From a virus: a stretch of DNA of 59,254 nucleotides. Positions 15,661-50,360 of the stretch are shown here, one piece after another (within the stretch, counting starts at the first letter, position 1; every line of letters begins with the position of its first letter). Under the pieces are notes generated by a model. It did not search any database. It saw nothing but the letters and a program-made list of their open reading frames with translations, and was not told the DNA's origin. The position numbers and the translations under genes were made by a program. Location: the IMG/VR virus record IMGVR_UViG_3300023097_000063, positions 1 to 59,254 of that record. The stretch is one strand, 5' to 3'.

Positions 15661-16359
15661 CTACACCGTCCCGAACGGCTCGCTGGGGAAATCCTGGAAG
15701 ACGTGCGGTGCCAGGACCCGCAGCTCCTCCACGACCATCCCCGACCAGCGGCGGATCTCCGCATCCGCCGCCACATGCCACCGCCGCCGCAACACATCCC
15801 GCCACGCCCGCAGATTCCCCGACACCACAAACCGGGTCTCCGTCATGTTCGGCAGCACCGCACGGGCTGTCTCCCGCGCCTGCTTCCGCGGCACACCCTC
15901 CCGCTCCAGCTCGGCCACGAGCATCGCGTACACGTTCCTCGCCACCGTCCCGGCCTGGACCAGCTGCGCCGCCAACCCCGCCCGGCCAGCGAGCGCCGGG
16001 GGCACGACCATGCGTGCCTCGGACTCGTCCACGTACCGCTGCGACAGCACACTGAACGACAGATGCCGGTGCCTCTCCAGCTCCAGCAGCAGAGACCTCG
16101 ACACCCCCTCCACGTAGAACGTGGCGGTGGCGTGTTCGAGGACGGACTCGTGCTGCTGGGCGAGGATGTTGTTCAGGTAGCCGGCGTTCGACGCGGTGAG
16201 CGGGTTCGGCTTCTTCCATGACTGGTAGCAGGTGCGGCCGGCGAACTCTGCGAGAGCCTGGCCGCCGTCGGCGCCGTCCGCGGTCCAGCCGGTGAGCTTC
16301 TCAGCCAGGGCCGTGTCGAACGTGGTGTGGGCGATGAGGTGGATGGCAGGTTCGGCCAC
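15661..16359 (-). CDS. thyX: FAD-dependent thymidylate synthase ThyX
   Basis: 232 residues from GTG 16359, with GGGAG 7 nt upstream. The diagnostic ThyX signature RHRx7S is at R96-S106 (RHRHLSFSVLS), followed by QRYVD. Other family segments are HESVLEHATATFYVEGVSRS and ETRFVVSGNLRAWRDVL. The length is normal for ThyX. The enzyme makes dTMP from dUMP with FAD and methylenetetrahydrofolate, raising dTTP supply for phage DNA. It is the last gene of the leftward cassette, next to the sugar genes. Confidence 0.95.
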   Translation of the reverse strand: MAEPAIHLIAHTTFDTALAEKLTGWTADGADGGQALAEFAGRTCYQSWKKPNPLTASNAGYLNNILAQQHESVLEHATATFYVEGVSRSLLLELERHRHLSFSVLSQRYVDESEARMVVPPALAGRAGLAAQLVQAGTVARNVYAMLVAELEREGVPRKQARETARAVLPNMTETRFVVSGNLRAWRDVLRRRWHVAADAEIRRWSGMVVEELRVLAPHVFQDFPSEPFGTV

Positions 16360-16456
16360 AGAGCGCTCCCGGAGATGGTGTGGTGAGAGTCCCGGCTGGC
16401 TCGATCGCAACCGGGACTCTCACACTATCCATCGTCTCTGCCAGGAGATCGGATCG

Positions 16457-17101
16457 CTACAGGCTAGACCGCTCCGGGTCAGGCAAGGAAGGTGCGGGCG
16501 GGTCCCAGGTCGGGATCGGCGCGGTCGACGTGCTCATGCTGTGCTGGGGCGGGACCGGGGGTGCCGGGACCTGCGTCGACGGATCCACGACCGGCGGCGG
16601 AGACACCGGTCCAGCGGTAGGCGGCGGTGCGCCGGTGGACGGCGGCGGCACCACTACCGGCGAGTTCGTGGTGACCGGCGGCAATGACGGGCCACCGGTC
16701 AGAGGCGGTTGCGGTGACCCGGTCGGCGCTGGCGTGAACGGCACCCCGCCTGGTGTGGTCGGCGAGTTATGCGCACCACCCGGCGGCCCGTATGTTGCTG
16801 CCGGGGGGCCGTTCGTGCCGGCAGGGGGCGCGTACGGGGGATGCCATTCCGGCTCCTGAGGCAACTCCAGAGGCGACGGGACGACGACCAAAGGTGGAAG
16901 ACCTCCCCCACCACCCTGATCGCCGCCCCCCTCATCCTCCCGCGGGGCGGAGCCGAAGTCGGAGACCCAGCCCGGCTCGGCATGCCACCACGCGGACACC
17001 TCGTGCGCCGCGAACCCCACGATCGGGACGCCGAGGAGCACAATCGCCAGGAACACGAACAGCGGCCGCGGCCCGTTCTCGCCGAAAAACGCCAACGCCA
17101 C
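16457..17101 (-). CDS. membrane protein with long proline-rich tail
   Basis: 214 residues from GTG 17101. One N-terminal transmembrane helix (LFVFLAIVLLGVPIVGFAAH) is followed by an acidic, Gly-rich hinge and about 140 residues rich in Pro, Thr and Ser. No lipobox or sortase signal is visible. The disordered outside-type region suggests a surface or wall-spanning protein. Role unknown. Confidence 0.75.
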   Translation of the reverse strand: MALAFFGENGPRPLFVFLAIVLLGVPIVGFAAHEVSAWWHAEPGWVSDFGSAPREDEGGGDQGGGGGLPPLVVVPSPLELPQEPEWHPPYAPPAGTNGPPAATYGPPGGAHNSPTTPGGVPFTPAPTGSPQPPLTGGPSLPPVTTNSPVVVPPPSTGAPPPTAGPVSPPPVVDPSTQVPAPPVPPQHSMSTSTAPIPTWDPPAPSLPDPERSSL

Positions 17102-17122: not shown

Positions 17123-18232
17123 TTAGCCGACCCCCACGCCACGGCCCTGCAGCTGGTAAGCGTGTTCCCACGCGGACCACCACAGGCGGGCGTTCCCTGA
17201 GATCGTAAAGCGCTCCCGTACCGCCTGTCGCCCTGCCGCACCGAGTTCGAGACGCAACGCACTAGACCGCGTCAGCCGGCGCAGATGCTGATGCCACTGC
17301 TTCGGCGACTCAGCGATCAGGCCGCCGCCGGTCGCGGCGTAGAAGGCCCGGTATTCGTCCAGACCGGACGCCACCCACGGGATACCCAGCGCGCTGTACT
17401 CCAGGGCCTTCAGCCAGCTCTTCGACCGGTTGAAGGGGTTGTGCTGCAGCGGGGCGATCCCGACCCCGATCTCCGCCGCGAGCGTTCCCGCGTACTCGTC
17501 GATCGGGACCGGCCCCGTACAGCGCACCTGGCGGGCCTTCACCCCGAACTCGCGGGCGACTACCTCATCAGGGCCCGGTCCGACAATCCGCAGGAACTGT
17601 CCTGCAGTCGTGAACAGCCGGCCGATCGCGTCCCCGACGACCTGGGCGTCGTCCGGGTGGGTGAACACCGACCCCCCCCAGCCGACCTGGGCGGAATCCT
17701 CGTGGGGGACGTCGAGAAGGTGGTCGGGGGCGTAGTTCGGGATCAGGACCCCGCGGCCGTGAGAGGCGTACCGGTCCAGGAGGGGCTGGGTGGTTGCGGT
17801 GACGAGGGTGGCGGCGTCACAGGCACGCTGGCAGTGGTCCCAGTTGTACTCGGAAGAGAACCGCGGGTTGAACTTGTTCACGGCGATGTGCCGCGGGTGG
17901 ATCGCGGCGAGGTCGTCGTCCATTTCTACGACGACGGCGACGCCCTGGTCCCGGAGGATCTGCACGCTGTCCGCGAGGTACCGGTTGAGGGGGCGCTGGA
18001 AGACGACGACGTCGGTGTCTTCGGGAACGTGGACTTTCTGCGCCCGCCCGCCGACGATTTTCCCCGCCTGGTTGAGGCGCGCCCCGATGATCTCCGCCGA
18101 CAGGAACCCGGAAACCTCTGCCTCGGACACGACCTGAACGTTGTGGCCGGTCGCAGCGAGAGCCCGCGAAGGCCAGATCATCCGGTAGGCCCCGCAGCCG
18201 GTTTCGTCCGCGGGAAACACGTACACCTTCAC
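17123..18232 (-). CDS. GT4-like glycosyltransferase (GT-B fold)
   Basis: 369 residues from ATG 18232. It starts with MKVYVFPADETGCGAYRMIW and has the GT-B two-domain layout: EMDDDLAAIHPRH in the N-domain, then VGWGGSVFTHPDD, EIGVGIAPLQHNPFNRSKSW and LKALEYSALGIPWVAS. The last has the conserved E of retaining GT4 enzymes. It transfers a sugar from a nucleotide donor to an unknown acceptor. It is the most downstream transferase in the cassette and overlaps the preceding gene by 4 bp. Confidence 0.8.
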   Translation of the reverse strand: MKVYVFPADETGCGAYRMIWPSRALAATGHNVQVVSEAEVSGFLSAEIIGARLNQAGKIVGGRAQKVHVPEDTDVVVFQRPLNRYLADSVQILRDQGVAVVVEMDDDLAAIHPRHIAVNKFNPRFSSEYNWDHCQRACDAATLVTATTQPLLDRYASHGRGVLIPNYAPDHLLDVPHEDSAQVGWGGSVFTHPDDAQVVGDAIGRLFTTAGQFLRIVGPGPDEVVAREFGVKARQVRCTGPVPIDEYAGTLAAEIGVGIAPLQHNPFNRSKSWLKALEYSALGIPWVASGLDEYRAFYAATGGGLIAESPKQWHQHLRRLTRSSALRLELGAAGRQAVRERFTISGNARLWWSAWEHAYQLQGRGVGVG

Positions 18233-18855
18233 CAGTTACCGGCCTTTCCGCTCGTGTTGCCGGGAACGCCGGGGCGGCCGCGGCCGTGGTGCCGCCACAA
18301 CCACGAGCGGACGGGGACGTGGTGGAAGATCGCCCCCGCGTCGAGCATGCGCAGGTAGAAACCCCAGTCGTCGTATTCGCCTCCGGAGTGCGGGTCGGTC
18401 TTGTATGCGAACCCGCCGACCTCCTGCGCCAGCCCGGTCCGCACCAGCGAGGTCACGGGAAGCCACGACCGCTCCCGGAGCAGGTCGCCGTCGAACGGGA
18501 GCCCGAACCGGCCCCACTCCTCCCGCGGCGCCAGCTGCTGGGCGTTCTGGTCGATGACGAAACACCCGGAGTAGACGACGTCCGCACCCGATTCGCGTGC
18601 GCCGGCTTCGAGGACACGCAGGTGGTCGGGGAGCAGGACGTCATCATCATCCACGAACGCACTGAACTCGGTCACCGACTGCATGAGCCCGCGGGTGCGG
18701 GTGGCGGCGGACCCGGCGCGGGTGTTGTCGGTGGCGATGATGACGGCGTCGGCGCCGCGAGTCTGGGCATTGATCGAGCCGAGACACTGGACCAGATCCG
18801 CGAGCCGCGGCGGAATGTGCGGGACGACGACGGTGATCCCGGGCCCGGTCACCAC
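18229..18855 (-). CDS. GT2-like glycosyltransferase (GT-A fold)
   Basis: 208 residues from GTG 18855 (a second GTG at 18852 is equally possible); it overlaps the stop of the upstream transferase. Features: ITVVVPHIPPRLADLVQCLG, the donor-binding acidic motif AFVDDDDVLLPDHLRVLEAG, and GGEYDDWGFYLRMLDAG, typical of GT2 enzymes. The N-terminus closely echoes the next gene (IPPRL), so the pair probably arose by duplication. A longer open frame back to 19416 lacks support. Confidence 0.8.
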   Translation of the reverse strand: MVTGPGITVVVPHIPPRLADLVQCLGSINAQTRGADAVIIATDNTRAGSAATRTRGLMQSVTEFSAFVDDDDVLLPDHLRVLEAGARESGADVVYSGCFVIDQNAQQLAPREEWGRFGLPFDGDLLRERSWLPVTSLVRTGLAQEVGGFAYKTDPHSGGEYDDWGFYLRMLDAGAIFHHVPVRSWLWRHHGRGRPGVPGNTSGKAGNW

Positions 18856-19421
18856 CGCGACGCCAGACCGCTCGTATTCGCGTTGTGGACCTCGTACGTC
18901 CACAGGATCTCGGGGGTGTGGGCGAACACGGCGCCGGCTTTGACGCAGCCGAGGATGAACTCCCAGTCCTCCCCCGACCACTCCTGATGCGCCGGCTCCC
19001 GCTGGCCGAATCCGACCGACTTCGCCAGGTCGGTGCGGACGAGAACGGTCATGGTCGTATGGTGCGGGTTCGCCGGGTCCATCTGCCGGCCGCGGTGGCC
19101 GGGGAACACGTTGTTCCCGTCGAACCAGCCCCACAGGAAGTCGGCGCCGGTGTCGGCCTGGAGGCGGTGGAGGGTTTCGAGGTACGGGGGGTGTAAACGG
19201 TCGTCGTCGTCCAGGAACGCGACCCACGGCGTGGTGACGCCGTCCAGAGCGCGCTGCCGGGTCGCGGCCGCGCCTTGCTTGCACACGTCGGTCGCGATGG
19301 AGATCGCGGCGGCGGGCATCGTCTGGGCGGCGACGGACTGGAGGGCACGAGGGAGATACGTGTTGAGGCGGGGCGGAATTACCGGGATGACGATGGTGGT
19401 GTCGTCGGGGTGGCATGCCAT
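18849..19421 (-). CDS. GT2-like glycosyltransferase (GT-A fold)
   Basis: 190 residues from ATG 19421, with AGGA about 8 nt upstream (an ATG at 19439 is possible). Motifs: TIVIPVIPPRLNTYLPRALQ, WVAFLDDDDRLHPPYLETLH, and SGEDWEFILGCVKAGAVFAH. It uses a metal-bound nucleotide sugar in the known family. It is coupled to the 18229 paralogue. Confidence 0.8.
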   Translation of the reverse strand: MACHPDDTTIVIPVIPPRLNTYLPRALQSVAAQTMPAAAISIATDVCKQGAAATRQRALDGVTTPWVAFLDDDDRLHPPYLETLHRLQADTGADFLWGWFDGNNVFPGHRGRQMDPANPHHTTMTVLVRTDLAKSVGFGQREPAHQEWSGEDWEFILGCVKAGAVFAHTPEILWTYEVHNANTSGLASRW

Positions 19422-19462
19422 GCGCCCGATCCTAGACATCGGGCCGGGCGCACGGCCGCTGA

Positions 19463-19690
19463 TCAGTTGAGAAAGTCCTCTGCGCTGACACCGTCGATGG
19501 TCTGCTTGATGACGCTCTGCGCTGCGCCCTCGGAGGTGTACGGGCCGCCCGCCAGGGGAAGGCCACCGCCGTCGTAGTCGACCTCGATGCTCCATGTGCT
19601 GGCGGAGCCGATCGCATAGACGGACTTGCAGCGCTTCAGGTTGACGTAGTTGCCGTTGGCAAGCTTGATGAAGTCTGGCGTTGAACTCAT
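19463..19690 (-). CDS. small protein A of the sugar cassette
   Basis: 75 residues from ATG 19690 (AGGA upstream). Pattern: FIKLANGNYVNLKRCKSVYA, then a beta segment (WSIEVDYDGG), then a C-terminal helix (EGAAQSVIKQTI). It has the same length and layout as the protein at 21247, so the two look like distant paralogues. No function is known. Confidence 0.75.
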   Translation of the reverse strand: MSSTPDFIKLANGNYVNLKRCKSVYAIGSASTWSIEVDYDGGGLPLAGGPYTSEGAAQSVIKQTIDGVSAEDFLN

Positions 19691-19705
19691 AACGTAATCC
19701 TAGAT

Positions 19706-20623
19706 TCAGTCGCCATACCGGCGGAGGGCTTCGGCCACACCGTCTTCGATGCTGACCTGCGGCACGTACAGCTCGTGCATGCGGGCCGGATGACCCACCC
19801 TGCGGAAGACACCCATGGGCTTGTCCGCGAGGACGTTCACCCCCGGGTCGTAGCCCACCTGCCTCGCCGCTATACCGATCAGGTCGGCCATCGAAGTGCC
19901 CAGGCCGGTACACAGGTTGACCGGCTGGCGCTCATCGGCATCGACAACGGCAAGGGAGGCACGGACGACGTCGGTGATGTGGATCCAGTCCCGGATCTGA
20001 TCCTGGTCCCCCCACACGTCAAGCGGGTCCTGGCGCTGAGCGGCCCGGCCAACGATGGCAGGGAACGGGTAGTCGAGGTCCTGGGTGGCCCCGTACCCGG
20101 AGAACGGGCGGACGACGTGAACGCGGAGTCCTTCGTGGGCGGCCGCGGCGGCGAGGCGTTCGCCGGTGATTTTCGCCCACCCGTAGTTCGCGTCCGGCTG
20201 GCGCATGTCGGCCAGGTCGATGTAGTCCTCGCGGAGCTGCGTGCTGAAGCTGTGCCGGGTCTGCATGCTGACCGGGTACGCGGCGGAGGACGAGTAGTAC
20301 AGGACTGCCTTCTGGCCGGTGGCGAGCGCCCACCGGAACAGGGAGGCGTCGAGGAGGAGGTTTCCGGCGAGGGCCATCGGCTGGCCGTCGATCGTCGCGC
20401 GGCCGCCGACTGTGTACGCGCAGTGGACCACGAGGTCGAACTGGTGCGTGACGTCGCGGAAGAACTGCAGGGCGTCGATCTGGGAGTGTCTGTGCGCGGC
20501 CAGGCTTCCGTGTGCGCCCCGCAGGTCGATGCCATCTACCTCCCAGCCACGTGCGACGAGTTCGGCGGCGATGTGCCGGCCGACGAACCCGGAGCTGCCC
20601 GTGACGAGCGCGCTCGGGCTCAT
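19706..20623 (-). CDS. NAD-dependent sugar epimerase/dehydratase
   Basis: 305 residues from ATG 20623. The Rossmann motif GSSGFVGRHIAAEL lies at about residues 9-22, with IDLRGAHG binding the cofactor ribose. The YxxxK pair is in ANYGWAKITGERL, and YYSSSAAYP supplies the catalytic Ser. This is an extended SDR that acts on nucleotide sugars (UDP-glucose 4-epimerase-like). It would make a sugar donor for the nearby transferases. Its ATG overlaps the methyltransferase stop by 4 bp. Confidence 0.85.
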   Translation of the reverse strand: MSPSALVTGSSGFVGRHIAAELVARGWEVDGIDLRGAHGSLAAHRHSQIDALQFFRDVTHQFDLVVHCAYTVGGRATIDGQPMALAGNLLLDASLFRWALATGQKAVLYYSSSAAYPVSMQTRHSFSTQLREDYIDLADMRQPDANYGWAKITGERLAAAAAHEGLRVHVVRPFSGYGATQDLDYPFPAIVGRAAQRQDPLDVWGDQDQIRDWIHITDVVRASLAVVDADERQPVNLCTGLGTSMADLIGIAARQVGYDPGVNVLADKPMGVFRRVGHPARMHELYVPQVSIEDGVAEALRRYGD

Positions 20624-21240
20624 CGGACGGCCTCTGCGGCGACGACCTGGAACATGCCGACCCGTTCATGCCGGAGGATTTCCCACCCCGACGTGGTGAA
20701 CAGGTCCGCGTATCCGGCTTCGTCGAACGCCCACGCGTGCTCGGCGCAGTGGGAGTGGTCGGTTTCCGTGGCCGGCGACGACGCGACGACCGCACGGACC
20801 CCGGCCGCGTGGAGACGGCGGAGGACCGTCCACGGGTCAGCGACGTGTTCGAGGACCTCGGTCATCACGGCCAGCTCGGCGAGTTCGATGCCGTGGAAGG
20901 TGTCGCCGGTGGCGAACACGTCGGCGTAGCGGCCGTCAACGCCGCGTTCCGTCCAGCCTTGCTGGTTGGACGGCTGGAAGTCGTACCCCCACGCCTCGAT
21001 CTCTTCCCGCGGGTATCGGGCGAGGAGGGACAGGAGGCCACCGTCGCCGCAGCCGAGGTCGACGACGGTGAGGGCGCCGATGCTCGCGTGGTGCCGGTAC
21101 CAGGTGACCAGTTCGGCGGCCTTGTCGAGGCGTGGCCGGTGGACGCCTTGTTCGAGGTGGGGGGCGCGTTCCCGGTCGGCGTGGAATGCGGCGGTGGACA
21201 CGTGGGGGGTGTCGCCGTCGAAGAGTTTCCAGAACGTCAT
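20620..21240 (-). CDS. SAM-dependent methyltransferase
   Basis: 206 residues from ATG 21240. Class I motif I is VVDLGCGDGGLLSLLARYP, followed by AWGYDFQPSNQQG (acidic loop) and LAVMTEVLEHVADPW (motif IV region). It resembles sugar or small-molecule methyltransferases of the UbiE/class I type. In context it may methylate a sugar. It is similar to the enzyme at 21468 (both have GCGDG, AWGYD and TEVxEH). Confidence 0.85.
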   Translation of the reverse strand: MTFWKLFDGDTPHVSTAAFHADRERAPHLEQGVHRPRLDKAAELVTWYRHHASIGALTVVDLGCGDGGLLSLLARYPREEIEAWGYDFQPSNQQGWTERGVDGRYADVFATGDTFHGIELAELAVMTEVLEHVADPWTVLRRLHAAGVRAVVASSPATETDHSHCAEHAWAFDEAGYADLFTTSGWEILRHERVGMFQVVAAEAVR

Positions 21241-21246
21241 GCGGGG

Positions 21247-21471
21247 TCAGTCATCAAGGTCGACGGTGCCGAGGATGTTCTCGATCCGCTGCTTGAGGGT
21301 CTCGGCCTCCGGCTCCGTCATCGGCGTGTTAACGGCGAACTGCGCGACGGCGTCGTTGCCGGCGTTGTTCCCAATGACCTGGTAGCCGCCATCCGGGTTC
21401 ACACCGACGAAGAACGAGAGGATCTGGTTCACGTTGATCGCGTTGTCGTACTTGTCCCGAAGGAACATCAT
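21247..21471 (-). CDS. small protein B of the sugar cassette
   Basis: 74 residues from ATG 21471 (or the adjacent ATG at 21468, which has better spacing to GGAG). Pattern: FLRDKYDNAINVNQILSFFV, a beta segment, then EPEAETLKQRIENILG. It looks like a distant paralogue of the protein at 19463. Function unknown. Confidence 0.75.
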   Translation of the reverse strand: MMFLRDKYDNAINVNQILSFFVGVNPDGGYQVIGNNAGNDAVAQFAVNTPMTEPEAETLKQRIENILGTVDLDD

Positions 21472-22106
21472 GTCTCCTTGAACGCGGTGACTGCCTGGAA
21501 TCGTAGCGTCCGCCAGAGGGCTGTTCCGTGGTTGAACGGCTTCTCTGAGGCGCACTCGCGCTGATCGGCCACCGTCCACCCTGCCTCTTCGAACAGCTGC
21601 CGGTAACCGGGTAGGTCCCATGCCCATGCGTGTTGCTCGTAATGCCAGACGTCGTCCTCGGCGGACGGCGAGGTAGCGATGAGCCAGCCTGCCGGCAGGC
21701 TCCGCACGAAGGCGTGCGGGTCCAGCAGATGCTCGATGACCTCGGTGACGGTGACAAGCTGCCCGTATTCGAGCGGCTCCGCCAGGATGTCGGCTTGGCG
21801 TGCGTCCACTCCCACCCGGGCGGCCGCCGCCATGTTCCCGGTGCCGGCGTCGTAGCCCCATGCGCGCAGGCGCGGATGGCGGTCGCGTAAGAGCGCGAGG
21901 AAGCTGCCGTCGCCGCACCCGATGTCCGACACGGTGCTCAGCGCGGGTTCTTTGGCGATGAGGTCGGTGACGGCCTGGACGACCATGGCGAGGCGTTCGG
22001 CGTGGCCGATCTGGTCGTCGCCGGGCACCCACGGGTGAGCCTCGAAGAACGCGGTGGTGGTGAAATCGGGGATCGTGCCTTCGGGGAAGAGCCGCCATTC
22101 GGTCAT
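21468..22106 (-). CDS. SAM-dependent methyltransferase
   Basis: 212 residues from ATG 22106, overlapping the upstream stop. Motif I is VSDIGCGDGSFLALLRDRHP. RAWGYDAGTGNMAAAARVG follows, then LVTVTEVIEHLLDP. The C-terminus has HYEQHAWAWDLPGYRQLFEE, which closely parallels the 20620 enzyme. The substrate is unknown; a sugar or a glycan is suggested by the cassette. Confidence 0.85.
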   Translation of the reverse strand: MTEWRLFPEGTIPDFTTTAFFEAHPWVPGDDQIGHAERLAMVVQAVTDLIAKEPALSTVSDIGCGDGSFLALLRDRHPRLRAWGYDAGTGNMAAAARVGVDARQADILAEPLEYGQLVTVTEVIEHLLDPHAFVRSLPAGWLIATSPSAEDDVWHYEQHAWAWDLPGYRQLFEEAGWTVADQRECASEKPFNHGTALWRTLRFQAVTAFKET

Positions 22107-22780
22107 GCGGGCATCAGCTTCCGGAGTTGGTCGACGTCCGCGGTGAAGTCGTGGCGGTCGAACATGTGCTGATCGTGGCTGTACATGTCCGGGGCGTTGA
22201 CCCTCCGGTAGCCGTCGTCCCACTCGACTTTCCCCGACACCGGATGGAGGTGCTCGACGATCACGTCCGGGAGGTACCGGATCCGGCCGGTGTGGGTGCC
22301 GAGGGCGAGGACCCAGTTGTCCATGTACAGGTGCTTGAACTCCGGCGGTGACATGTGCCCCAGCACCCGGACGACATCGGAGGTGACGGCGAACTGGGTG
22401 GGGAGGTTCGGGCCTTGGATGAGGTCGTTGCCGTACACCCATCCCCAGCGCAGGTCCGCGAGCGCGGCGAGGTAGGCGGTGTCGAAGCCGAGGGTGCGTG
22501 GCCGGTGGTCGTCGCCCATGAACATGAGGTTGTCGGCCTGGTCGGCCGCCCAACCGGCGCCGCAGTTGAGGGCTTCGATCATGTTGGTGTGGGGGCCGTG
22601 CCGGAGGTGGAACCCGGCGTCCGCGGCCGCGGCGACGTAGGCGTCGAAGTCGGGGTCGTCGTCGTCGATGACGATCGTGACCGCGGTGTCCCCGGTGGTG
22701 GTGGCCTGGACGGCGTGGGCGATCTCCGCGACCGCGCGCGGCCGGCCACGGGTGGGGACAATGATCATGAGGTCGTTCAT
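22103..22780 (-). CDS. GT-A-type glycosyltransferase
   Basis: 225 residues from ATG 22780. Opening MIIVPTRGRPRAVAEIAHAV, a DDDD motif (TIVIDDDDPDFDAY), MFMGDDHRPRTLGFDTAYLA, and a C-terminal HLHPVSGKVEWDDGYRRVN. It is typical of phage-encoded GT-A enzymes found beside tail genes. Its ATG overlaps the stop of the minor tail gene, so it is expressed with the virion genes. Confidence 0.75.
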   Translation of the reverse strand: MNDLMIIVPTRGRPRAVAEIAHAVQATTTGDTAVTIVIDDDDPDFDAYVAAAADAGFHLRHGPHTNMIEALNCGAGWAADQADNLMFMGDDHRPRTLGFDTAYLAALADLRWGWVYGNDLIQGPNLPTQFAVTSDVVRVLGHMSPPEFKHLYMDNWVLALGTHTGRIRYLPDVIVEHLHPVSGKVEWDDGYRRVNAPDMYSHDQHMFDRHDFTADVDQLRKLMPA

Positions 22781-23496
22781 CAGGAGACCGCCTGTTGTGT
22801 GAGGGCGAGGGACGCGGTGGTGACGTTCACCGCTGAGCCCTGGGACTGTTTCGCCGCCAGCTGCACCCGCTGCCCCGCCACGAGCGGGGTCGTCCACACG
22901 CCGTACGCGTGCGGGCCCGAAGAGCCGGTCGTCGCTGATGACCCGGTCGCGGGCCGGTCGAACTCCCGATACTTGACCACCGTAGTTCCGGCTGAGTCGA
23001 GGATGTTGACCCGTGCGACCCGCAGGCCGCTCGTACCGGTCGCGAACTCCACCCACACCTCTGCGGTGTACAGGCCGTCTTCGGGGACGGTCATGTAGTC
23101 GTTTCCGCCGGTGAACATGGCCGCGTTGTCGAAGTCCTCGACTGGGAGGGCGATAGCGGTGCCGGTGACGCCGAACCCGGAGACGCCGGTGACGCCGGTC
23201 GGGATCGAGATCGTCGTCACCCGTGACGCTGCGGCGCCGGGCTGCAGGAGGGCCCGGTGTGCCGGCTCCCAGGCCCCGCCGCGGACGACGTACTTCTTGT
23301 CGTTGTCGTCGAGGAACGACTCTTCGCCGTCGACCACGGTGGTGTGGCGGGTGGTGCGGTCCGCGGCCGAGCTGTAGCGCAGGTTCACACGGGGTTCGAT
23401 GACACCGTTGTAGGCGGCCATCGCGCCGGGGAACGTGTCTCTCAGGTCAGTGGATAGGGGGAGGGGGACTCCTTGGTCGGGGCTGTTGGCAGGCAT
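22780..23496 (-). CDS. minor tail protein, C-terminal beta domain
   Basis: 238 residues from ATG 23496. The N-terminal half has RYSSAADRTTRHTTVVDGEE and the C-terminal half a jelly-roll-like pattern (YMTVPEDGLYTAEVWVEFA, GTTVVKYREFDRP, RVQLAAKQSQG), as in C1q-like receptor-binding or decoration domains. It is last of the minor tail genes, as expected for a tip or fibre protein. It is a candidate acceptor for the sugars made by the next genes (inference). Confidence 0.7.
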   Translation of the reverse strand: MPANSPDQGVPLPLSTDLRDTFPGAMAAYNGVIEPRVNLRYSSAADRTTRHTTVVDGEESFLDDNDKKYVVRGGAWEPAHRALLQPGAAASRVTTISIPTGVTGVSGFGVTGTAIALPVEDFDNAAMFTGGNDYMTVPEDGLYTAEVWVEFATGTSGLRVARVNILDSAGTTVVKYREFDRPATGSSATTGSSGPHAYGVWTTPLVAGQRVQLAAKQSQGSAVNVTTASLALTQQAVS

Positions 23497-25649: not shown

Positions 25650-26482
25650 TGCTGGCCTTCGACCCACGTGCCGGTCGCAGCGCCCCAGGTCCCGGTGGTG
25701 TCTTCCCACCCGTATCCGTCGGGGGCGAGGAACGTCGACCCGACCGGAAACACACTTAACAGTGACAGGGGGGCCTCGACTGGGCCGTTCGTGACCCGGT
25801 ACGGCAGCTGCCACACCCGGTACGGCTTGAACATGTCGATACTCACCCTCGACATGGTCACGTCCCCGACCGCGATGTAGTCCAGGCCCGACGTCGTCAA
25901 ACCCCAACCGGTCTCTACCGGCAACTGCAGGACCAGGTCCACACCGTCCGCGAGGATCGTCTTCATCGCCGTGATGTCCGGCAATGCCAAAGACACGAAC
26001 ACGGCGATACCGGCCTCACCGCGACGCGGCTGCGCGACCGTGATCGGCACGACCCCGCCGTCAAGGTCGAACACCCCCGTAGCCGTGGCCAGGCCGACAT
26101 CACCGAACCCCTGAAAGAAGATCCCCGACACCGGATCACACGCCGACCCCAACCGGGGGCAGTCCTCCGCGAACTCGATGTCCCTCGACGGGTTCGTCGG
26201 ATCCCGCAACCATCCTGCCGCGCTGGCCGTGACAGCCACCTCCCCAGACGTGAGCACCACCGTGCCGCCGTCATCCTCGAGCTCGTACGAGACGGGGGTG
26301 GCGGCGGGCGCTTCGGTGTCGTAGACGACGATCCAACCCGCATCATCCCTGACCGGGAACCCACGGACCAGCGCCCTCCCGCCCGGGGTGATCCGGTACA
26401 GGGCCCACACATCCCCCGAGGTGGGGGTTTCCGCGACGACCTGCGCGGCCGTGCCGACGGACGTGGCGGTGAGTGAGGCCAT
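25646..26482 (-). CDS. distal-tail-like minor tail protein
   Basis: 278 residues from ATG 26482, overlapping the tape measure stop. It is beta-rich (AGWIVVYDTEAPAATPVSYE, GVDLVLQLPVETGWGLTTSG, DYIAVGDVTMSRVSIDM). By gene order after the tape measure and by fold-like pattern it corresponds to the distal tail/baseplate hub component of siphoviruses. Confidence 0.7.
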   Translation of the reverse strand: MASLTATSVGTAAQVVAETPTSGDVWALYRITPGGRALVRGFPVRDDAGWIVVYDTEAPAATPVSYELEDDGGTVVLTSGEVAVTASAAGWLRDPTNPSRDIEFAEDCPRLGSACDPVSGIFFQGFGDVGLATATGVFDLDGGVVPITVAQPRRGEAGIAVFVSLALPDITAMKTILADGVDLVLQLPVETGWGLTTSGLDYIAVGDVTMSRVSIDMFKPYRVWQLPYRVTNGPVEAPLSLLSVFPVGSTFLAPDGYGWEDTTGTWGAATGTWVEGQQ

Positions 26483-29400
26483 CAGACACTCCTCGGCTTG
26501 GCCAGGACCTTACGGGCCGTACGCCGCTGCGTGTCCTGCGCGGCGGTGGTGGCCAGCGCGGTGAACCGTTCGGTGCCGAACTGCGCCACGACCGTCACCG
26601 GCCCCATCGCCCGCTGCTCCGCATGACCACCCCTACCACCCGGCGCCGGCACCGCCGACTGAATCACATCAGCGACCTGCGTGACCGTCCTGCGCACATC
26701 GGGGAGCTCCGCCTCGAGGCCTTGGTCGGCGCCCTTCAGGAAGTTGACGCCGGCGGCTTTGGCGAGTTTCGACGGGGACGCGTTCCCGAGGGCCGAGTTG
26801 AAGAAATCGACGATTCCGGTGCCGATGTCCCGGACGTAGCCGAACAGGCGGGGGACCATCTCGCTGATGCCGTTGATGAACCCGGTGATCAGGTTCTTGC
26901 CGGCGGTGACCATCGACCCGGTGAGGTTCGAGAACAGGCCGGGTAGCTGCCCCAGGAGGGTGCCGATGTCGCGGAGTGCCTGCAGGAGGCCGCTGGTGAC
27001 GGTGCCGATGAACCTGCCGACGGCGGCGGCGGCCGCGCCGATCGCGTCGATCAGCCCCCGGAAACCGGAGACGATCGCGGCGACCGTGAGGGGCACGAGG
27101 TTGAGGGTGAACATCAGCGACTGGAAGACGATCTTCAACGCGCCGGACTCCGTCGCCCACTTCAAAATCGCGGTGACGGCCTCGAGGATGAGCACGATCA
27201 ACGGGGTCAGGATGGGCAACATCTCGGTGAACGCGACTACCAGGGCAAGCCACGATTCGACCAGCGGCGGCAGGAGCGGCACCAACGACGCGAACACCTG
27301 CAGCAGCAGCGGGGCCAGCGCAGTGGCGACCTCGAGCAGCGGCGGGATCAACGCCAGAAAAGCTTCGACGAGCTGCGGCAGGTAGGGGATAAGGGCGGTG
27401 AGGAGCTGGGTGCCGAACTCGAGGAACGCCCCGGTCATCTGAACGAACAGGTCGATGATCTGCGGAATGTACGGGATCAGCGCCTGCAGGGCGACGATCA
27501 GCTGCGCGGACAAGGCCTGCGCGAACTGGACCAGAACCGGAACCAGCTGCGTCAACAGGCCGAGGAGTTGCGGGGCGGCGGCCAGGAACGCCTGCGCGAT
27601 CGCCTGCGCCACCTGCAGAATGACCGGCACCAAAGGTGCGAACGCCTGTGCCAGGTCAAGGCCGAGCTGGACGAAGATCGGCAGCTCCGTCGCGATGAGC
27701 TGGGTGATGATCGGCAGGAACGTCTGCAACGCCTGCGTGAACGCGTCCGCGAACAGCGAGATCAGCGGGCCGAGCGTGACGGCCATGTTCGTCAGCGCCC
27801 CGGCCAGCGCCACCAGGACCGTCGTGGCCAGTTGCGCCAGCAACGGCAACAGCGGTGCGACAGCGGTCAGCAGAGCGGCGATCGCCTGACCGACCGGGAA
27901 CGCCGCCGGGATCAGGTTCGTCAGCGCGGCACCGACCGCCTCCAACACGGCCGTCAGCGCCGGCGCGAGCGCGACGATCAGATTCCCGAGGATCGTCGCG
28001 AGGGGCTGGAACACCACGGCGAGGGCGGCGATCGCCGGCGCCAACGATGCCAGCGGCGCACCCAGCGACGCGAGGGCGGGCCCGAGCGCCTGGACCACGG
28101 TGACGAGTGCGGGGCCGACAGCGATCGCGATCTCCGCGAACGCCCCCGCCAACGCCGGAAGCTGCGCGACGACGGCCTCGAGGACGGGGAAGAGGGCTTC
28201 GACGACCCGGTTGACCTCTTGGAAGAACCCGACCAAAGCTTCCTGCCCGGCGGTGGAGGACAGGAAGCCGTTGAGCTGGTCGAGGAGGATCGTGAAACCC
28301 GATCCGTTGATCGTCTCCGCTGCGGTGAAAATCGACTTCAGGATCCCGAACACGTCTGCCGCGACGGCCCCGAACGCCTTCAACACCTCGATCCCGTTCA
28401 GGATGATCTGCTCGAGCTGCCCCGACGCCGCCAGATCGGACACGTAGCCGGCGAACCGTGCGATCGCATCCCCGGCGCCCTCGGTGATGGAGGTGAGAAC
28501 GCGGGCGCCGACCTCGGCCACATCCACCAGGGCGGTGATCAGGGGTGCGAACGCAGGAGTGAAGTTGTCCAGGGTCGCCCGCGCGGACGTGAAGATCGAG
28601 GCGAGGTCGAGTTTCACCGACTCCTGCCGTAGGGCCTGCAGGGAGGCGACGACCTGCCGGTTGATGACCTCGGCCAGCCCGGCGAACCCGGCGGTCGCGA
28701 CCGGCAGCAGCTGCGTACCGGTCTGCCGGAGCTCCTCCGCGACCCCGGCGAGGAGGGCTTGCTGGACGGTGCGCTGCAACCCCTCGTACACAGTCTTCAG
28801 CTGCAGGAGGGCCTCGACGACCTCACGCCCGGCCGGGGCCAGCTTCGCCATCGCATCAGCGGCCTTGTCGACACCGGCGGCGGTGCGCTCCTGCGCGGCC
28901 GCGAAAGCCTCCTCCGCCGCGATCGCCGCACGCTTCGCCGTCGCCAGATTCCGCTGCGCCTGCGCCTGCCGCTCGAGCGCATCCTGGACCAGGTCGGACC
29001 CTTCGACGCCCTTCTTGTTCGCGTCGGCCTGCTCTTTGGCGAGTTTCTTGATCCGCTTCTGGATGTCATCCAGACGGTCGGCGGCGTTGTCGTAGGCGAG
29101 CTGTGCCCGCTCCAAATCCTGGGCGGTAGCCTTCCCGGACTTGACGTCGGCCTGGACGCGGCGGAGTTCAGCCTCGGCGTCGGTGAGGTCGAGGATCGCA
29201 CCGCGTTCGTCACGCCGGGCGTCGTCGATGTCCTCGGCCCGGTCTGCGATCTGGTCCGCGGCGGTCTGGCGGGCGTCGTTGACGGCTTCGGTGGCCTTGG
29301 CGAGGTCACGTTCGGAGTCGGCCACCCGCTGGTTCGCCTGGACCAGGGTCTCCTGCGCGGCCTTGACCCGGCGCCCGTACTCGGCGGCGGACTCGCCTGC

Positions 29401-30207
29401 GGCGCTCTGGGCGCCAACGACGGCTTTGAGGGCGTCACCGACCCCCATCAGCCCGATCTTGAACGTGGCGATGACCGCCGCGGCGGTAGCGAGCACCCCC
29501 GGGATGATGAGGGCAGCGCCGGCGGCGTTGGCGAGTTCGACGGCGAACGCGGCCAGGAGCGGGATGGTCTGGGCCGCGGCTGCGCCGATACCAGCGATGC
29601 CGGTGGCGGTGACGGCGAGCCCGGCGCCGTAGCCGCCGGACAGGATCCGTGACAGCGGGCCGTCACCGAACCCGGCGCCGATCCTGAGGAAGTTCTGGAG
29701 TGCGGACGTGACCGCTGCCAGGGGACCTTTCAGCCCCGCTTGGAAGGCGTTGCCGAAGTCAAGGCCCGATTGGTTCCCGTGCCTGCGGGCAGAGGCGCGG
29801 AAGGCGTTACCGAAGCTGTCTCCGGAGGCGCCGCCCTCGGAGACGAACCTGCCACGGCCGTCGCGGAGGCGCCCCTGGGCGTCCCGGGTGAACTGCTCCC
29901 CGAACTGTGCCCCCGCGGCCCCGCCGGCTTGCCCTGCTTCATCCTCGATACCGGGGAGGCCGTCTTTGACGAACTTGCCGCGGGAGTCGCGTAGACGGCC
30001 GTTGGCGTCTTTGACGAATCCGTCCCCGAACGCCTGCCCGGAACGTTCACCGGACTTCGCGAAGTCGTCTTCGACGCCTTTGAGGTTGTCGTTGATCGTC
30101 TTCTGAAAGTTTTTGGTGGCGTTGTCGGCCGACTTTTTCATGTCGGCGGGGAGGGTGTCGTCGTCTACGCGGAGTTCGACGTAGACGACGTCTACGGGTT
30201 GGGTCAC
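26482..30207 (-). CDS. tape measure protein
   Basis: 1241 residues from GTG 30207. The N-terminal region is helical with NATKNFQKTINDNLKGVEDD and imperfect repeats of about 30 residues (GRLRDSRGKFVKDG, GRLRDGRGRFVSEG). A coiled coil spans about 280-420. A very long hydrophobic helical array follows (residues about 540-1080, rich in A, L, V, F, I, P), then a C-terminus ending KPRSV. Length, composition and place after the frameshifted chaperone genes are decisive. It sets tail length and passes into the host envelope at infection. Confidence 0.95.
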   Translation of the reverse strand: MTQPVDVVYVELRVDDDTLPADMKKSADNATKNFQKTINDNLKGVEDDFAKSGERSGQAFGDGFVKDANGRLRDSRGKFVKDGLPGIEDEAGQAGGAAGAQFGEQFTRDAQGRLRDGRGRFVSEGGASGDSFGNAFRASARRHGNQSGLDFGNAFQAGLKGPLAAVTSALQNFLRIGAGFGDGPLSRILSGGYGAGLAVTATGIAGIGAAAAQTIPLLAAFAVELANAAGAALIIPGVLATAAAVIATFKIGLMGVGDALKAVVGAQSAAGESAAEYGRRVKAAQETLVQANQRVADSERDLAKATEAVNDARQTAADQIADRAEDIDDARRDERGAILDLTDAEAELRRVQADVKSGKATAQDLERAQLAYDNAADRLDDIQKRIKKLAKEQADANKKGVEGSDLVQDALERQAQAQRNLATAKRAAIAAEEAFAAAQERTAAGVDKAADAMAKLAPAGREVVEALLQLKTVYEGLQRTVQQALLAGVAEELRQTGTQLLPVATAGFAGLAEVINRQVVASLQALRQESVKLDLASIFTSARATLDNFTPAFAPLITALVDVAEVGARVLTSITEGAGDAIARFAGYVSDLAASGQLEQIILNGIEVLKAFGAVAADVFGILKSIFTAAETINGSGFTILLDQLNGFLSSTAGQEALVGFFQEVNRVVEALFPVLEAVVAQLPALAGAFAEIAIAVGPALVTVVQALGPALASLGAPLASLAPAIAALAVVFQPLATILGNLIVALAPALTAVLEAVGAALTNLIPAAFPVGQAIAALLTAVAPLLPLLAQLATTVLVALAGALTNMAVTLGPLISLFADAFTQALQTFLPIITQLIATELPIFVQLGLDLAQAFAPLVPVILQVAQAIAQAFLAAAPQLLGLLTQLVPVLVQFAQALSAQLIVALQALIPYIPQIIDLFVQMTGAFLEFGTQLLTALIPYLPQLVEAFLALIPPLLEVATALAPLLLQVFASLVPLLPPLVESWLALVVAFTEMLPILTPLIVLILEAVTAILKWATESGALKIVFQSLMFTLNLVPLTVAAIVSGFRGLIDAIGAAAAAVGRFIGTVTSGLLQALRDIGTLLGQLPGLFSNLTGSMVTAGKNLITGFINGISEMVPRLFGYVRDIGTGIVDFFNSALGNASPSKLAKAAGVNFLKGADQGLEAELPDVRRTVTQVADVIQSAVPAPGGRGGHAEQRAMGPVTVVAQFGTERFTALATTAAQDTQRRTARKVLAKPRSV

Positions 30208-30883
30208 TCGGTCCTCCGTCTACGTCCGGCGCCGAGTGCGACGGCGGCGGCGAAGCTGCTGTTCGAGGCGTCGTCGTCGCTGCCAAACCACGCCGGACGG
30301 TATGCGGTGGGCCCTGTGGGAGGCGCGTTGGTGGTGAGGAGGGTGGGCGTGGCGGAGAGGGTGCGGTTCGCGTCGGCCATGTCCTCCTCTTTCGTCAGGG
30401 TCAGGATCCAGTAGTGGACGAGGTCTAGGAAGTCTTCGACAGGGAGGTCGAGCGGGTGGACGCCCTGCGCTTGGGCTTGGCCGTTGAACCGGTGCCAGAC
30501 GTCGCGGCGGGCGACGAGTTCGAAGAGGTGGCGGGTGATTCCAAAGGGCGGCCCGAATGCACCTCGGACAGCCAGTGGAACACCTGCATGAACTGGCCGA
30601 GGTCGATCGGGTTCGCTGATCCCTTCGACATGCGCGCCTTGAACGTGGCGGCGGATTCGGGGAGGAGGAGTCCGTCGACGGCGGCTTTGATCGCGTCGAT
30701 TGCGCCGGCTACCTGTGCGGGGTCGTTCTGGTCGATGCCGGAGAACTTGCCGCCGAGGGTGACGAGTTCCTGCATGACTTCGACGGGGACGGTTTCGTAG
30801 GCGTCGAAGTCGTCGGGGGCGATGGTGAAGTAGACGCGTTTGCGGGTCTTGGAGAAGTCTTTGAACGCTACGGAATCTGCCAT
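30204..30883 (-). CDS. tail assembly chaperone, frameshifted G-T form
   Basis: Ribosomes that slip by -1 at 30542-30548 leave the G frame and continue in an open frame of about 113 residues (GITRHLFELVARRDVWHRFN, then VEDFLDLVHYWILTLTKEED) to the TGA at 30204, which overlaps the tape measure start. The extension has no start codon of its own. This is the standard G/GT arrangement of long-tailed phages, in which the long form guides tape measure and tail tube assembly. Confidence 0.85.
30425..30883 (-). CDS. tail assembly chaperone, short G form
   Basis: 152 residues from ATG 30883. It has VAFKDFSKTRKRVYFTIAPD, YETVPVEVMQELVTLGGKFS and FMQVFHWLSEVHSGRPLESP, then a Ser/Thr-rich tail that looks like out-of-frame reading beyond the slip site. 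It is the unshifted product of the chaperone pair. Confidence 0.85.
   Translation of the reverse strand: MADSVAFKDFSKTRKRVYFTIAPDDFDAYETVPVEVMQELVTLGGKFSGIDQNDPAQVAGAIDAIKAAVDGLLLPESAATFKARMSKGSANPIDLGQFMQVFHWLSEVHSGRPLESPATSSNSSPAATSGTGSTAKPKRRASTRSTSLSKTS
30542..30548 (-). promoter_or_regulatory. -1 ribosomal frameshift site CCCTTTG
   Basis: In the G frame the codons are CGC CCT TTG; sliding back one base gives CCC TTT, a perfect X-XXY-YYZ heptamer. The -1 frame is open from here to 30204. Confidence 0.8.
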
Positions 30884-30933
30884 GTGGGTGGTGTCGCTTT
30901 CCGGTGGGTGGTGATGTGGGCCCATCGTAGCTA

Positions 30934-31374
30934 TCAACGGGAGGTGCGTGCGGCTTCGAGTGCTGTGGTGAGGAAGTGGTTGGGTCGCATGCCGCGGGTG
31001 TAGCGGGCGTAGATGTAGCCGCCTGCGCCGCGCCAACGGAGGGCTTTGGCGCGGGTGGGGCGGATGAGGCGGCGTTTGGGCCCGTACAGGCCGGTGCCGT
31101 CGTGGACGTACCGGGCGTAGTGGACGTTGGAGCCGATGCGTACGGCGGGCCGTCCTCGGTAGGTGCGCAGGTCTACGGCGATCGACGACCGCAACCGGCC
31201 GGTGTCGATCCGGCGGGGTCCGGTCGGCCCGCCGCCGAGGTTGCGTTTCGCCTGCGACTGGACGCGGATACCGCGGCGTAACAGGTCACGGGCGAGGTTC
31301 CCGTTCGGGTTGTTGAGGGTGGCGTTGAGGAGGTTCCGGTTGAACCGGGAATTGGTGGTCGCCGTGATCCTCAC
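30934..31374 (-). CDS. HK97 gp10-like tail completion/connector protein
   Basis: 146 basic residues from ATG 31374. It contains LLRRGIRVQSQAKRNLGGGP, RIDTGRLRSSIAV, VRIGSNVHYARYVHDGTG and RPNHFLTTALEAA. The motif DTGRLRxSI with YARYVxxGT is the hallmark of the HK97 gp10 family, which joins head and tail. Position before the chaperones fits. Confidence 0.85.
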   Translation of the reverse strand: MRITATTNSRFNRNLLNATLNNPNGNLARDLLRRGIRVQSQAKRNLGGGPTGPRRIDTGRLRSSIAVDLRTYRGRPAVRIGSNVHYARYVHDGTGLYGPKRRLIRPTRAKALRWRGAGGYIYARYTRGMRPNHFLTTALEAARTSR

Positions 31375-48641: not shown

Positions 48642-48877
48642 CGTTTCTCCTGGTCTTGGTCGTTGAGAGTGGCGGTGAGGTCGCGGTAGAGGGTGGTGGC
48701 GGTGTCGTAGACGTCGAGGAGGGCGGAGCGCTGCAGGACGATCTCGTCCAGGAGCTGGGGGAGGTCGTGGTGGATGAGGTGGTGGAGGTCGGGGGCGGGT
48801 GCGGCGAGGTGGGTGAGTTGGGCGCGGGCTGCGGCTAGGCGGCCGAGGATGTGGGTGATGTTGGCAGGGTGGGTCAT
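48638..48877 (-). CDS. hypothetical helical protein
   Basis: 79 residues from ATG 48877, overlapping the methyltransferase stop. Helical and His/Leu-rich: ITHILGRLAAARAQLTHLAA, LIHHDLPQLLDEIVLQRSAL, TLYRDLTATLND. Unknown. Confidence 0.7.
   Translation of the reverse strand: MTHPANITHILGRLAAARAQLTHLAAPAPDLHHLIHHDLPQLLDEIVLQRSALLDVYDTATTLYRDLTATLNDQDQEKR
48647..48665 (-). promoter_or_regulatory. CAACGACC element inside upstream gene end
   Basis: The minus strand reads CAACGACCAAGACCAGGAG. It overlaps the last codons (NDQDQE) of the 48638 gene and ends in the ribosome binding site of the 48641 start. The match to the other copies is close, but coding sequence may explain it. Confidence 0.45.
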
Positions 48878-50124
48878 GTGTGCTCTTCCAGGAACGCCCG
48901 AAACGTGGGCAGCGCACCGAGTGCGTATGTGGCGGCCTGCTGGACTACCCCGTTACCTGCGATCTTGATGGCGGCAGACCGGCCGACATGGTTCGTGATC
49001 CAGCCGGCGGGCAGCCCTACCAGCCACTCCGTGAACATCGGAGACAGGCGCGGCTGACCCTTCGTGCCCAACTCGGTCGGGGCGGGCGCGGGCAGACCGA
49101 ACGCCCGCTCCTGGCGGGCCACGGCCGCGGCGTACGACCCGAAATTCGGGTCGCAGACCGCACCGGGCAGCAGGAGATCGCCGTGGTTGTTGTTCTTGTT
49201 GCCGTTCGCGTTGGTGACGGTCGGAGTCGGGAGCATCGGAGCGACCGACACCAGCGACGGGCTACGGCGCCCGCGCTCGGACGGGCAGTCCCCGCGATCG
49301 GCGTCCGACGACTTCGGGGTCGGCAGCAGCGAGACCGCGGTACGCAGGTCCATTCCACCGCTGCCGTGCTCGCCAGGGCCAGCGGTGTCCGAGGTCCGCG
49401 GAGTCGGGAGGAACGCGCCGAGCAGGGTCGGGTTTCCGCGGCTGTATGTCGCAGAGACCCGATCGGCGTCGCCGGCCACGGGCGTCGGCAGGACGACACC
49501 GTCGGCGCCGCATGCGTCCGCGGGCATCTCCCATACGAGGCCGTCGCGGGCGAACCCGGCGGGTGGCCACTTCCCGGCTGAGGCGTGCGGCAGCCCGAAC
49601 AGCGCCCCGTCTGGCGGTCCGCATTCGGCGAGCGTCGCCGCGATGAAGACTCTGTGCCGGTGGTGGGCTGCCCCAACCTTGCACGCGCCGACCGTCGTCC
49701 ACGAGACGCGGTAGCCGGCCCCGGTCAGGTCGGCGAGCACCTGGCCGAAGACGCGCCCGTTCTCGATCGTCAGGATCCCCTGGACGTTCTCGCCAATGAA
49801 CAGGCGCGGGCGAAGGGTGAGGATCCCGTTGAAGACGTACGGCCACAGGTGCCGTTCGTCAGCCGATCCTCCGCGTTTCCCGGCTCCGGAGAACGGCTGG
49901 CAGGGCCAGCCGCCAGCAACGATGTCGACAGCGGCCAGGTCGGCCCAGCTGACAGTGGTCAGGTCTTCGTGGTTGGGCGTTCCCGGCCAGTGGGCGGCGA
50001 GGACCGCGGAAGCGGCTTCGTCCTTCTCGACGTGCCAGGTGTGCTCGACGGGGATCAGGGACTTGATGGCGAGGTCAAGCATCCCGGCGCCCGAGCATAG
50101 GGAACCGAGACGAACCGGGGTCAT
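48874..50124 (-). CDS. C5-cytosine DNA methyltransferase
   Basis: 416 residues from ATG 50124. Motif I LGSLCSGAGMLDLAI, catalytic PCQ at about 74-76 (GGWPCQPFSGAGKRGG), motif VI FIGENVQGIL, and motif VIII AHHRHRVFIAAT. The C-terminal NHVGRSAAIKIAGNGVVQQA is motif X. The central target-recognition part has LPTP three times or more, as in many actinophage enzymes. No restriction enzyme is next to it, so it probably protects phage DNA from host restriction. Its target site cannot be read. Confidence 0.9.
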   Translation of the reverse strand: MTPVRLGSLCSGAGMLDLAIKSLIPVEHTWHVEKDEAASAVLAAHWPGTPNHEDLTTVSWADLAAVDIVAGGWPCQPFSGAGKRGGSADERHLWPYVFNGILTLRPRLFIGENVQGILTIENGRVFGQVLADLTGAGYRVSWTTVGACKVGAAHHRHRVFIAATLAECGPPDGALFGLPHASAGKWPPAGFARDGLVWEMPADACGADGVVLPTPVAGDADRVSATYSRGNPTLLGAFLPTPRTSDTAGPGEHGSGGMDLRTAVSLLPTPKSSDADRGDCPSERGRRSPSLVSVAPMLPTPTVTNANGNKNNNHGDLLLPGAVCDPNFGSYAAAVARQERAFGLPAPAPTELGTKGQPRLSPMFTEWLVGLPAGWITNHVGRSAAIKIAGNGVVQQAATYALGALPTFRAFLEEHT

Positions 50125-50360
50125 CTGCGGATTCCGATCAGCTGGGCTGTGACGGCCATGGCGAGGCAGAGGGCGAGCATCCAGGTGGCGGTGTTGAGCA
50201 TGGTGTGGGAGGCGGTCCATGCGGCGATGAAGTCGAGGCGGCGGATGAGGCCGGGTGCGGGGGTGTAGTAGGGGGAGAGGGGGTCGGGGCAGCGTTGGTT
50301 GTCGTGGCCGCGTGCGGGGTGTCTGCAGGGGGCGTGGACGATTTTGGGTGTGGTCTTCAT
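50121..50360 (-). CDS. small membrane protein with Cys/His N-terminus
   Basis: 79 residues from ATG 50360 (GGGAGG upstream). APCRHPARGHDNQRCPDPLS could bind zinc; the C-terminal half is transmembrane (ATWMLALCLAMAVTAQLIGI). It leads the methyltransferase operon and carries the start-associated element. Confidence 0.7.
   Translation of the reverse strand: MKTTPKIVHAPCRHPARGHDNQRCPDPLSPYYTPAPGLIRRLDFIAAWTASHTMLNTATWMLALCLAMAVTAQLIGIRR

Follow-up and report, generated by a model that had tools for sequence, protein, structure and literature searches.

The virus contig IMGVR_UViG_3300023097_000063, taken from IMG/VR and analysed here over its whole length of 59,254 bases (the window), contains on its minus strand a cassette of nine tightly packed genes (17123-22780) that begins right at the last tail gene's stop codon. 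It comprises three GT2/GT-A-like glycosyltransferases (GTs), one GT4-like GT of the GT-B fold, one sugar-nucleotide short-chain dehydrogenase/reductase (SDR), two paralogous class I methyltransferases (MTs) and two proteins of 74-75 aa. Judged by gene content and gene order, we consider it reasonably probable that these enzymes make a methylated sugar chain that glycosylates a virion protein, probably of the tail, and that the cassette forms the variable end of the late tail operon. The best reading by analogy is of one version of a recurrent, combinatorial tail-end locus that would be akin in its working to the Che8 and Corndog systems.

Inspection of the minus strand in the leftward direction reveals terminase, portal, head, major tail and tape-measure genes, then four distal tail genes and, unbroken, the cassette. 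All nine cassette genes are present where the initial annotation had placed them, each with an open frame. Direct reading of the sequence shows that the ATG of the first gene, GTA1 (22780), shares bases with the codon that ends the tail gene at 22780-23496. Overlaps of 4-7 nt occur at five junctions (GTA1/MT1, MT1/S1, MT2/EPI, GT2b/GT2c and GT2c/GT4), and the remaining three are gaps of 6-23 nt. A sigma-70-type scan, which is weak evidence in actinophage, returned no promoter-like or convincing terminator-like site between the tail genes and the cassette. The junctions and the GTA1 start within the tail-gene stop bear out the initial annotation, which had described an overlapping operon with two small proteins that continues from the tail genes.

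Family assignments of the cassette proteins come from Pfam, PHROG and NCBIfam scans, with all genes on the minus strand. GTA1 (22103-22780, 225 aa) is a GT2-like (GT-A) GT that matches a phage glycosyltransferase family (PHROG, 1e-41), with a Pfam GT2 score of 21 against a cut-off of 23.3 bits; it is 36-39% identical to the N-terminus of phiAsp2 pas34 and to GTs of Streptomyces and Arthrobacter phages. The other two GT-A enzymes are the paralogues GT2b (18849-19439, 196 aa; Pfam Glycos_transf_2 5e-09, PHROG 8e-39) and GT2c (18229-18855, 208 aa; 5e-08 and 4e-30). The DDDD and NTSG..RW motifs of GT2b are invariant, DDDD across 8 aligned sequences, and DDDD is present in GT2c too. The last gene of the run encodes GT4 (17123-18232, 369 aa; Pfam Glyco_trans_1_2 1e-07, PHROG 4e-34). 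MT1 (21468-22106, 212 aa, DIGCGDGSF) and its paralogue MT2 (20620-21240, 206 aa, DLGCGDGGL) both carry an intact DxGCGDG motif of class I S-adenosylmethionine (SAM)-dependent MTs and match Pfam Methyltransf_23 (9e-12 and 3e-09, respectively). EPI (19706-20623, 305 aa) is an NAD-dependent sugar-nucleotide epimerase/reductase of the extended SDR type (Pfam Epimerase 3e-36). S1 (21247-21471, 74 aa) and S2 (19463-19690, 75 aa) complete the set. The enzymes named by the initial annotation, four GTs of two folds, a NAD-dependent sugar epimerase and two class I MTs, are thus all recovered, the GT-A class of three GTs by Pfam and PHROG and the GT-B class of the fourth with additional backing from a structure model.

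The AlphaFold model of GT4 (pLDDT 92.6) is that of a confident GT-B enzyme. Its nearest PDB entries are methylmannose-polysaccharide mannosyltransferase, PimA, BshA and MshA (Z 25-26.5, rmsd 3.5-3.9, 314-330 residues aligned), and since the closest fold matches are GT4 enzymes, the model places it among the GT4-like GT-B glycosyltransferases. The intact GxxGxxG (TGSSGFVG) and S-Y-K (S...YGWAK) motifs of EPI accompany PDB relatives that include MoeE5, GalE-type enzymes and GDP-fucose synthase. A standard GDP-L-fucose synthase was considered for EPI and rejected: aligned to 7ll6, EPI has SSSAAYP in place of GSSCIYP and no second-loop His, with S, Y and K kept. The Cys and His of GDP-L-fucose synthase are catalytic for 3,5-epimerisation. 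From its sequence, EPI could be either a 4-epimerase or a 4-ketoreductase.

The gene arrangement is far above chance, being shared by many independent contigs. Searches with GT4 and GT2b profiles yielded 160 viral loci; a single-sequence search with back-translated GT4 returned nothing, and alignments were needed. Many of the 160 loci share a common order of tape measure, two large tail proteins, a fibre-like protein, a variable set of GT, MT and EPI genes, a GT2, often a second GT2, GT4 and then genes on the opposite strand. Closest to the window in content is locus L044 (GTA1-MT-MT-EPI-GT2-x-GT4), followed by L034, L121 and L103. Because loci found by cassette profiles are preselected by the cassette, a second search used only the minor tail protein T24355 (24355-25518, minus strand) and its relatives. 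This homologue of phiAsp2 pas30 serves as a cassette-independent probe. Counts were made on loci with at least 5 kb downstream in alignment A8, one branch of the tail family (n=60). Cassette homologues follow in an unbroken same-strand run in 54 of these 60 loci, and in 58 if short opposite-strand open reading frames (ORFs) from the automatic gene call are ignored.

When loci were collapsed at 90% tail-protein identity, 54 of 56 lineages had cassette homologues directly downstream of the tail gene. The two lineages without a cassette, L304 and L323, have matching tail genes but other unidentified genes of 270-350 aa in the slot, and so offer a natural comparison lacking the cassette. All 54 cassette-bearing lineages carry at least two GTs and 50 carry an MT, in 29 different gene contents. 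In the window's own tail branch (A7), the cassette is found in L170, L173 and L175; L173 scored zero in the same-strand count solely through a spurious minus-strand ORF that breaks the run. Distances between tail proteins and cassette proteins correlate with rho 0.37 for GT4 and 0.13 for GT2, the latter value mixing paralogues, and this suggests gene exchange.

Unlabelled genes of ~200-420 aa in the variable slot were identified by Pfam. In sister loci the alternatives include GT2, Methyltransf_24, TOD1_MUCI70-like GT and Glyco_tranf_2_5 proteins, UDP-glucose/GDP-mannose dehydrogenases, further epimerases, and C-methyltransferases with both Methyltransf_13 and Methyltransf_14 (the latter at 1e-29 to 4e-44). 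The C-methyltransferases, dehydrogenases, Methyltransf_24 and TOD1-like proteins are enzymes devoted to sugars. Proteins with Methyltransf_13 and Methyltransf_14 constitute the nucleotide-sugar C-methyltransferase family, so that in the sister loci, at least, the methyl group is destined for a sugar. By analogy with these loci, MT1 and MT2 are likely to methylate sugar as well.

A bridge to known systems is provided by phiAsp2, where tail genes are followed by pas33 (GT2), pas34 (a GTA1 homologue fused to Methyltransf_24) and pas35. The phiAsp2 genes occupy the same place after a homologous tail gene, pas30, whose record notes a translation confirmed by N-terminal sequencing, and they likewise partner GT and MT, here by fusion. 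The N-terminus of pas34 is 39% identical to GTA1, while pas33 is 27% identical to Che8 gp108, in which a GT2 is joined to an O-methyltransferase of the TylF-like type (macrocin, hence sugar), and pas35 is 32% identical to Che8 gp110. phiAsp2 thereby connects the cassette with GT and O-methyltransferase genes published as glycosylating the capsid and tail of mycobacteriophages. It differs from the cassette in having three genes only, Methyltransf_24 rather than Methyltransf_23 and a GT25-like pas35, with neither GT4 nor epimerase. pas34 (L003:10001-11791) and PHROG 2675 are labelled DNA methyltransferase in RefSeq and PHROGs, although the domains of pas34 are a GT2-like GT and Methyltransf_24. 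From its sequence the latter part is likely a sugar O-methyltransferase, and the label misleads annotation of the family.

PMC12363180 reports that virion proteins of Che8, Corndog and Myrna are glycosylated and that Che8 gp110/Corndog gp38 is essential for capsid glycosylation, and PMC11600133 describes for Cluster O an O-methyltransferase with three GTs behind it, to which modification of the capsid and tail tube is attributed. In Corndog the O-methyltransferase and GTs belong to the structural operon; infected cells produce these enzymes, virions do not contain them, and unexpectedly few capsid peptides were detected (PMC4351075). Like the cassette, Corndog gp35-38 and their Cluster O relatives, represented in our comparisons by Wildflower, place tandem GTs and an MT, there an O-methyltransferase, in one run inside the structural operon. 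Unlike it, the four Corndog genes lie between portal and protease, with a Methyltransf_24/TylF-type MT, a GT25-like gp38 and no epimerase, whereas the window has a tail-end position, Methyltransf_23 MTs, a GT4, an epimerase and a content that varies strongly among relatives. Che8 gp108-110 (Cluster F) also combine a GT2, an MT and further GTs, and the gp108 N-terminus matches the cassette GT2 profile (1e-08), but they lie at the right genome end outside the tail operon and have GT and MT fused. The cassette shares with the Che8/Corndog type at least two phage GTs in one operon. Its adjoining MTs, putative sugar MTs, are of the Methyltransf_23 family rather than the Methyltransf_24/TylF family of Che8 gp108. 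No cassette protein or profile matched Che8 gp109/gp110 or Wildflower gp35/36, which only phiAsp2 pas35 matches. Because a homologue of the essential GT (gp110/gp38) is absent, we do not file the cassette as a member of the Che8/Corndog system. As an analogy only, bacterial O-antigen and capsule loci also show conserved flanks around shuffled GT, MT and epimerase content; the cassette differs from them in having soluble enzymes and no polymerase, flippase or export genes.

Several observations weigh against virion glycosylation as the function of the cassette. It is absent from 51 of 54 A7-branch loci, mostly more distant relatives of the window's tail protein, and related GTA1, GT2 and GT4 genes lie away from the tail in the Arthrobacter phage Atuin (beside tRNA/RNA-repair genes) and the Streptomyces phage SparkleGoddess (beside replication genes), so that the linkage to the tail is lineage-specific, though strong. 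The window GTs are related to those of Che8 at the superfamily level only, with no GT25-like homologue of gp110, and Methyltransf_23 alone does not specify a sugar substrate. We know of no biochemistry or mass spectrometry for any member of the cassette lineage. Further homologues are found in Atuin (gp165/169/170) and the Streptomyces phage Zuko (gp4-5/106-108), which match GT4 (36% and 27%) and GT2b (37% and 45%), with GTA1 in Atuin (37%) and MT2 in Zuko (gp107); unlike the cassette, these genes are scattered and not behind tail genes.

In the mechanism we propose, the nine genes would form the variable last part of the late tail operon and direct the synthesis of one methylated oligosaccharide. 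EPI would change the stereochemistry of a nucleotide sugar drawn from the host, probably at C4; at least one of the four GTs would attach the first sugar to the protein, with the others extending the chain; and MT1 and MT2 would methylate the sugar or sugars. We infer that the enzymes jointly build a single glycan, that MT1 and MT2 act on sugar and that a virion protein, most likely a distal tail protein, receives the glycan. A candidate acceptor is the distal tail protein directly upstream of the cassette (22780-23496, minus strand), which is fibre-like, with a weak Pfam match to a BclA_C-like C-terminus, and has homologues in the same position in L034, L092, L095 and L129. Further upstream, the tape-measure protein (26482-30207, minus strand; PHROG tape measure 5e-102 within A10) opens the distal tail module, which closes with the cassette; tape-measure homologues also lie upstream of cassettes in related loci.

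A sub-variant included in this explanation, and so not exclusive of it, would place the glycan on the major capsid and/or tail tube, with the tail end serving merely as a convenient site for late expression. Published reports name capsid and tail tube as the proteins modified in Che8 and Corndog, and gene position does not dictate the acceptor, since the Corndog genes are near head genes and those of Che8 lie at the distant end of its genome. Speaking for the tail instead, the cassette consistently adjoins the distal tail gene in 54 of 56 lineages; more weakly, neither the putative capsid protein nor the putative tube protein of the window has an obvious C-terminal extension rich in S/T. We regard this sub-variant as a serious possibility that falls short of an even chance.

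We consider it improbable that the GTs decorate bases of the phage DNA against nucleases, at sites prepared by a C5-cytosine methylase encoded in the window. Glycosylation of DNA by phage GTs has been reported (Pyle 2024, as cited in PMC12619734), and the window contains both such a methylase (48874-50220) and a flavin-dependent thymidylate synthase, ThyX, just downstream of the cassette. However, the methylase lies 27 kb from the cassette and exceeds the cut-off in just 19 of 47 cassette records, ThyX occurs in 3 of 47, and the conserved neighbour is the tail rather than replication. A conserved link to DNA-modifying genes, which the initial annotation had named as a sign against virion glycosylation, is therefore not seen. 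The window proteins scanned with Pfam included no Tet_JBP or other hydroxymethyl-base family, and Tet_JBP was not found in 42 cassette-bearing records, a soft negative given that the search had no responding positive control. The structure matches listed for GT4 include no T4-type DNA glucosyltransferase, although such kinship is not thereby excluded.

Phage-encoded serotype conversion is well known in other phages, and the closest solved structures of GT4, sugar, lipid and protein GTs, include the lipid mannosyltransferases PimA/PimB' and the wall teichoic acid GT TarM; the cassette enzymes could accordingly be imagined to alter a host wall glycan or glycolipid in infection or lysogeny and so block superinfection or re-adsorption of progeny. 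This is equally hard to credit because membrane segments are missing from every cassette protein (maximum 19-residue hydropathy 0.33-1.43), which leaves the cassette with no Gtr-type flippase or membrane-bound polyprenol-phosphate GT (hydropathy and Pfam likewise identified neither GtrA nor GtrB among its proteins), and because a late position in the tail operon fits virion assembly better than early exclusion.

With methylated-sugar decoration of the virion, the initial annotation had chosen what remains the best reading, now supported by the attachment to the tail, the swaps of sugar enzymes and the phiAsp2 bridge. The mycobacteriophage setting that it implied found no support: the closest named relatives are phages and prophages of Actinoplanes, Streptomyces, Arthrobacter and Frankia, with no close relative among Mycobacterium phages. 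The source virus is a soil actinophage, and its host is likely a non-mycobacterial actinobacterium; the G+C content of the window is 67.8%. A megablast of the cassette region against 50,697 phage records returned no match. The best genome homologues of GT2b are in Frankia sp. AiPa1 (48%) and two Streptomyces (37-38%), beyond which only generic GTs follow. The Frankia homologue forms a GT4-GT2 pair on a bacterial contig (L329), and those of Streptomyces (L330, L331) lie a few kb from ORFs of 1,628-1,646 aa that resemble prophage tail genes.

Experimentally shown glycosylation of phage virions is confined to a few mycobacteriophages. Here a gene set of that kind occupies one fixed position in the tail operons of soil actinophages from dozens of lineages, combinatorial in content and nearly always including methylation. 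If virion glycosylation is indeed its function, lineage-specific methylated glycans on particles would be the rule in this group, the role of phage glycans in nature (adsorption, host range, defence) would become testable, and the cassettes would offer a natural collection of compact, soluble GTs and sugar methyltransferases for use as tools. Speculatively, the glycan may vary because hosts or defences recognise it, much like a surface serotype; antibody evasion could be only an incidental effect in soil phages. As a bolder reading that is less likely than not, we suggest that soil actinophages may possess a serotype-like tail-end slot in which GT, O- or C-methyltransferase and sugar-nucleotide genes are swapped by recombination, yielding lineage-specific methylated tail-tip glycans under host or defence selection, and that the S2 family may be a GT accessory.

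The S2 homologues, at L121:11124-11345, L325:13708-13938 and L262:16274-16492, all lie in cassettes beside GT2 genes, and none was found outside cassettes among the ~82,000 short frames of the related loci collected at that point. S2 has no confident match in Pfam, PHROG or NCBIfam and no phage homologue by tblastn; its model (pLDDT 81) is a small beta sheet with a helix, with no significant PDB match and weak PH-domain-like matches only. For S1, the same three family scans and tblastn against phages returned no match. Alignment of S1 with S2 gave merely 12-25% identity, and a single family is not claimed.

Directly downstream of GT4, the protein at 16457-17101 has one strong membrane segment and a long Pro/Thr/Ser-rich tail, with no homologue in the related loci; it could be a lysis or surface protein. 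ThyX follows at 15661-16410 on the same strand as the cassette. In the C5-cytosine methylase, the Pfam match is limited to the first half of the domain, at positions 2-164 of 324. A putative tail assembly protein (30425-31036), encoded upstream of the tape measure, has a Ser/Thr/Pro/Lys-rich C-terminus in which Ser and Thr make up 47% of the last 40 residues.

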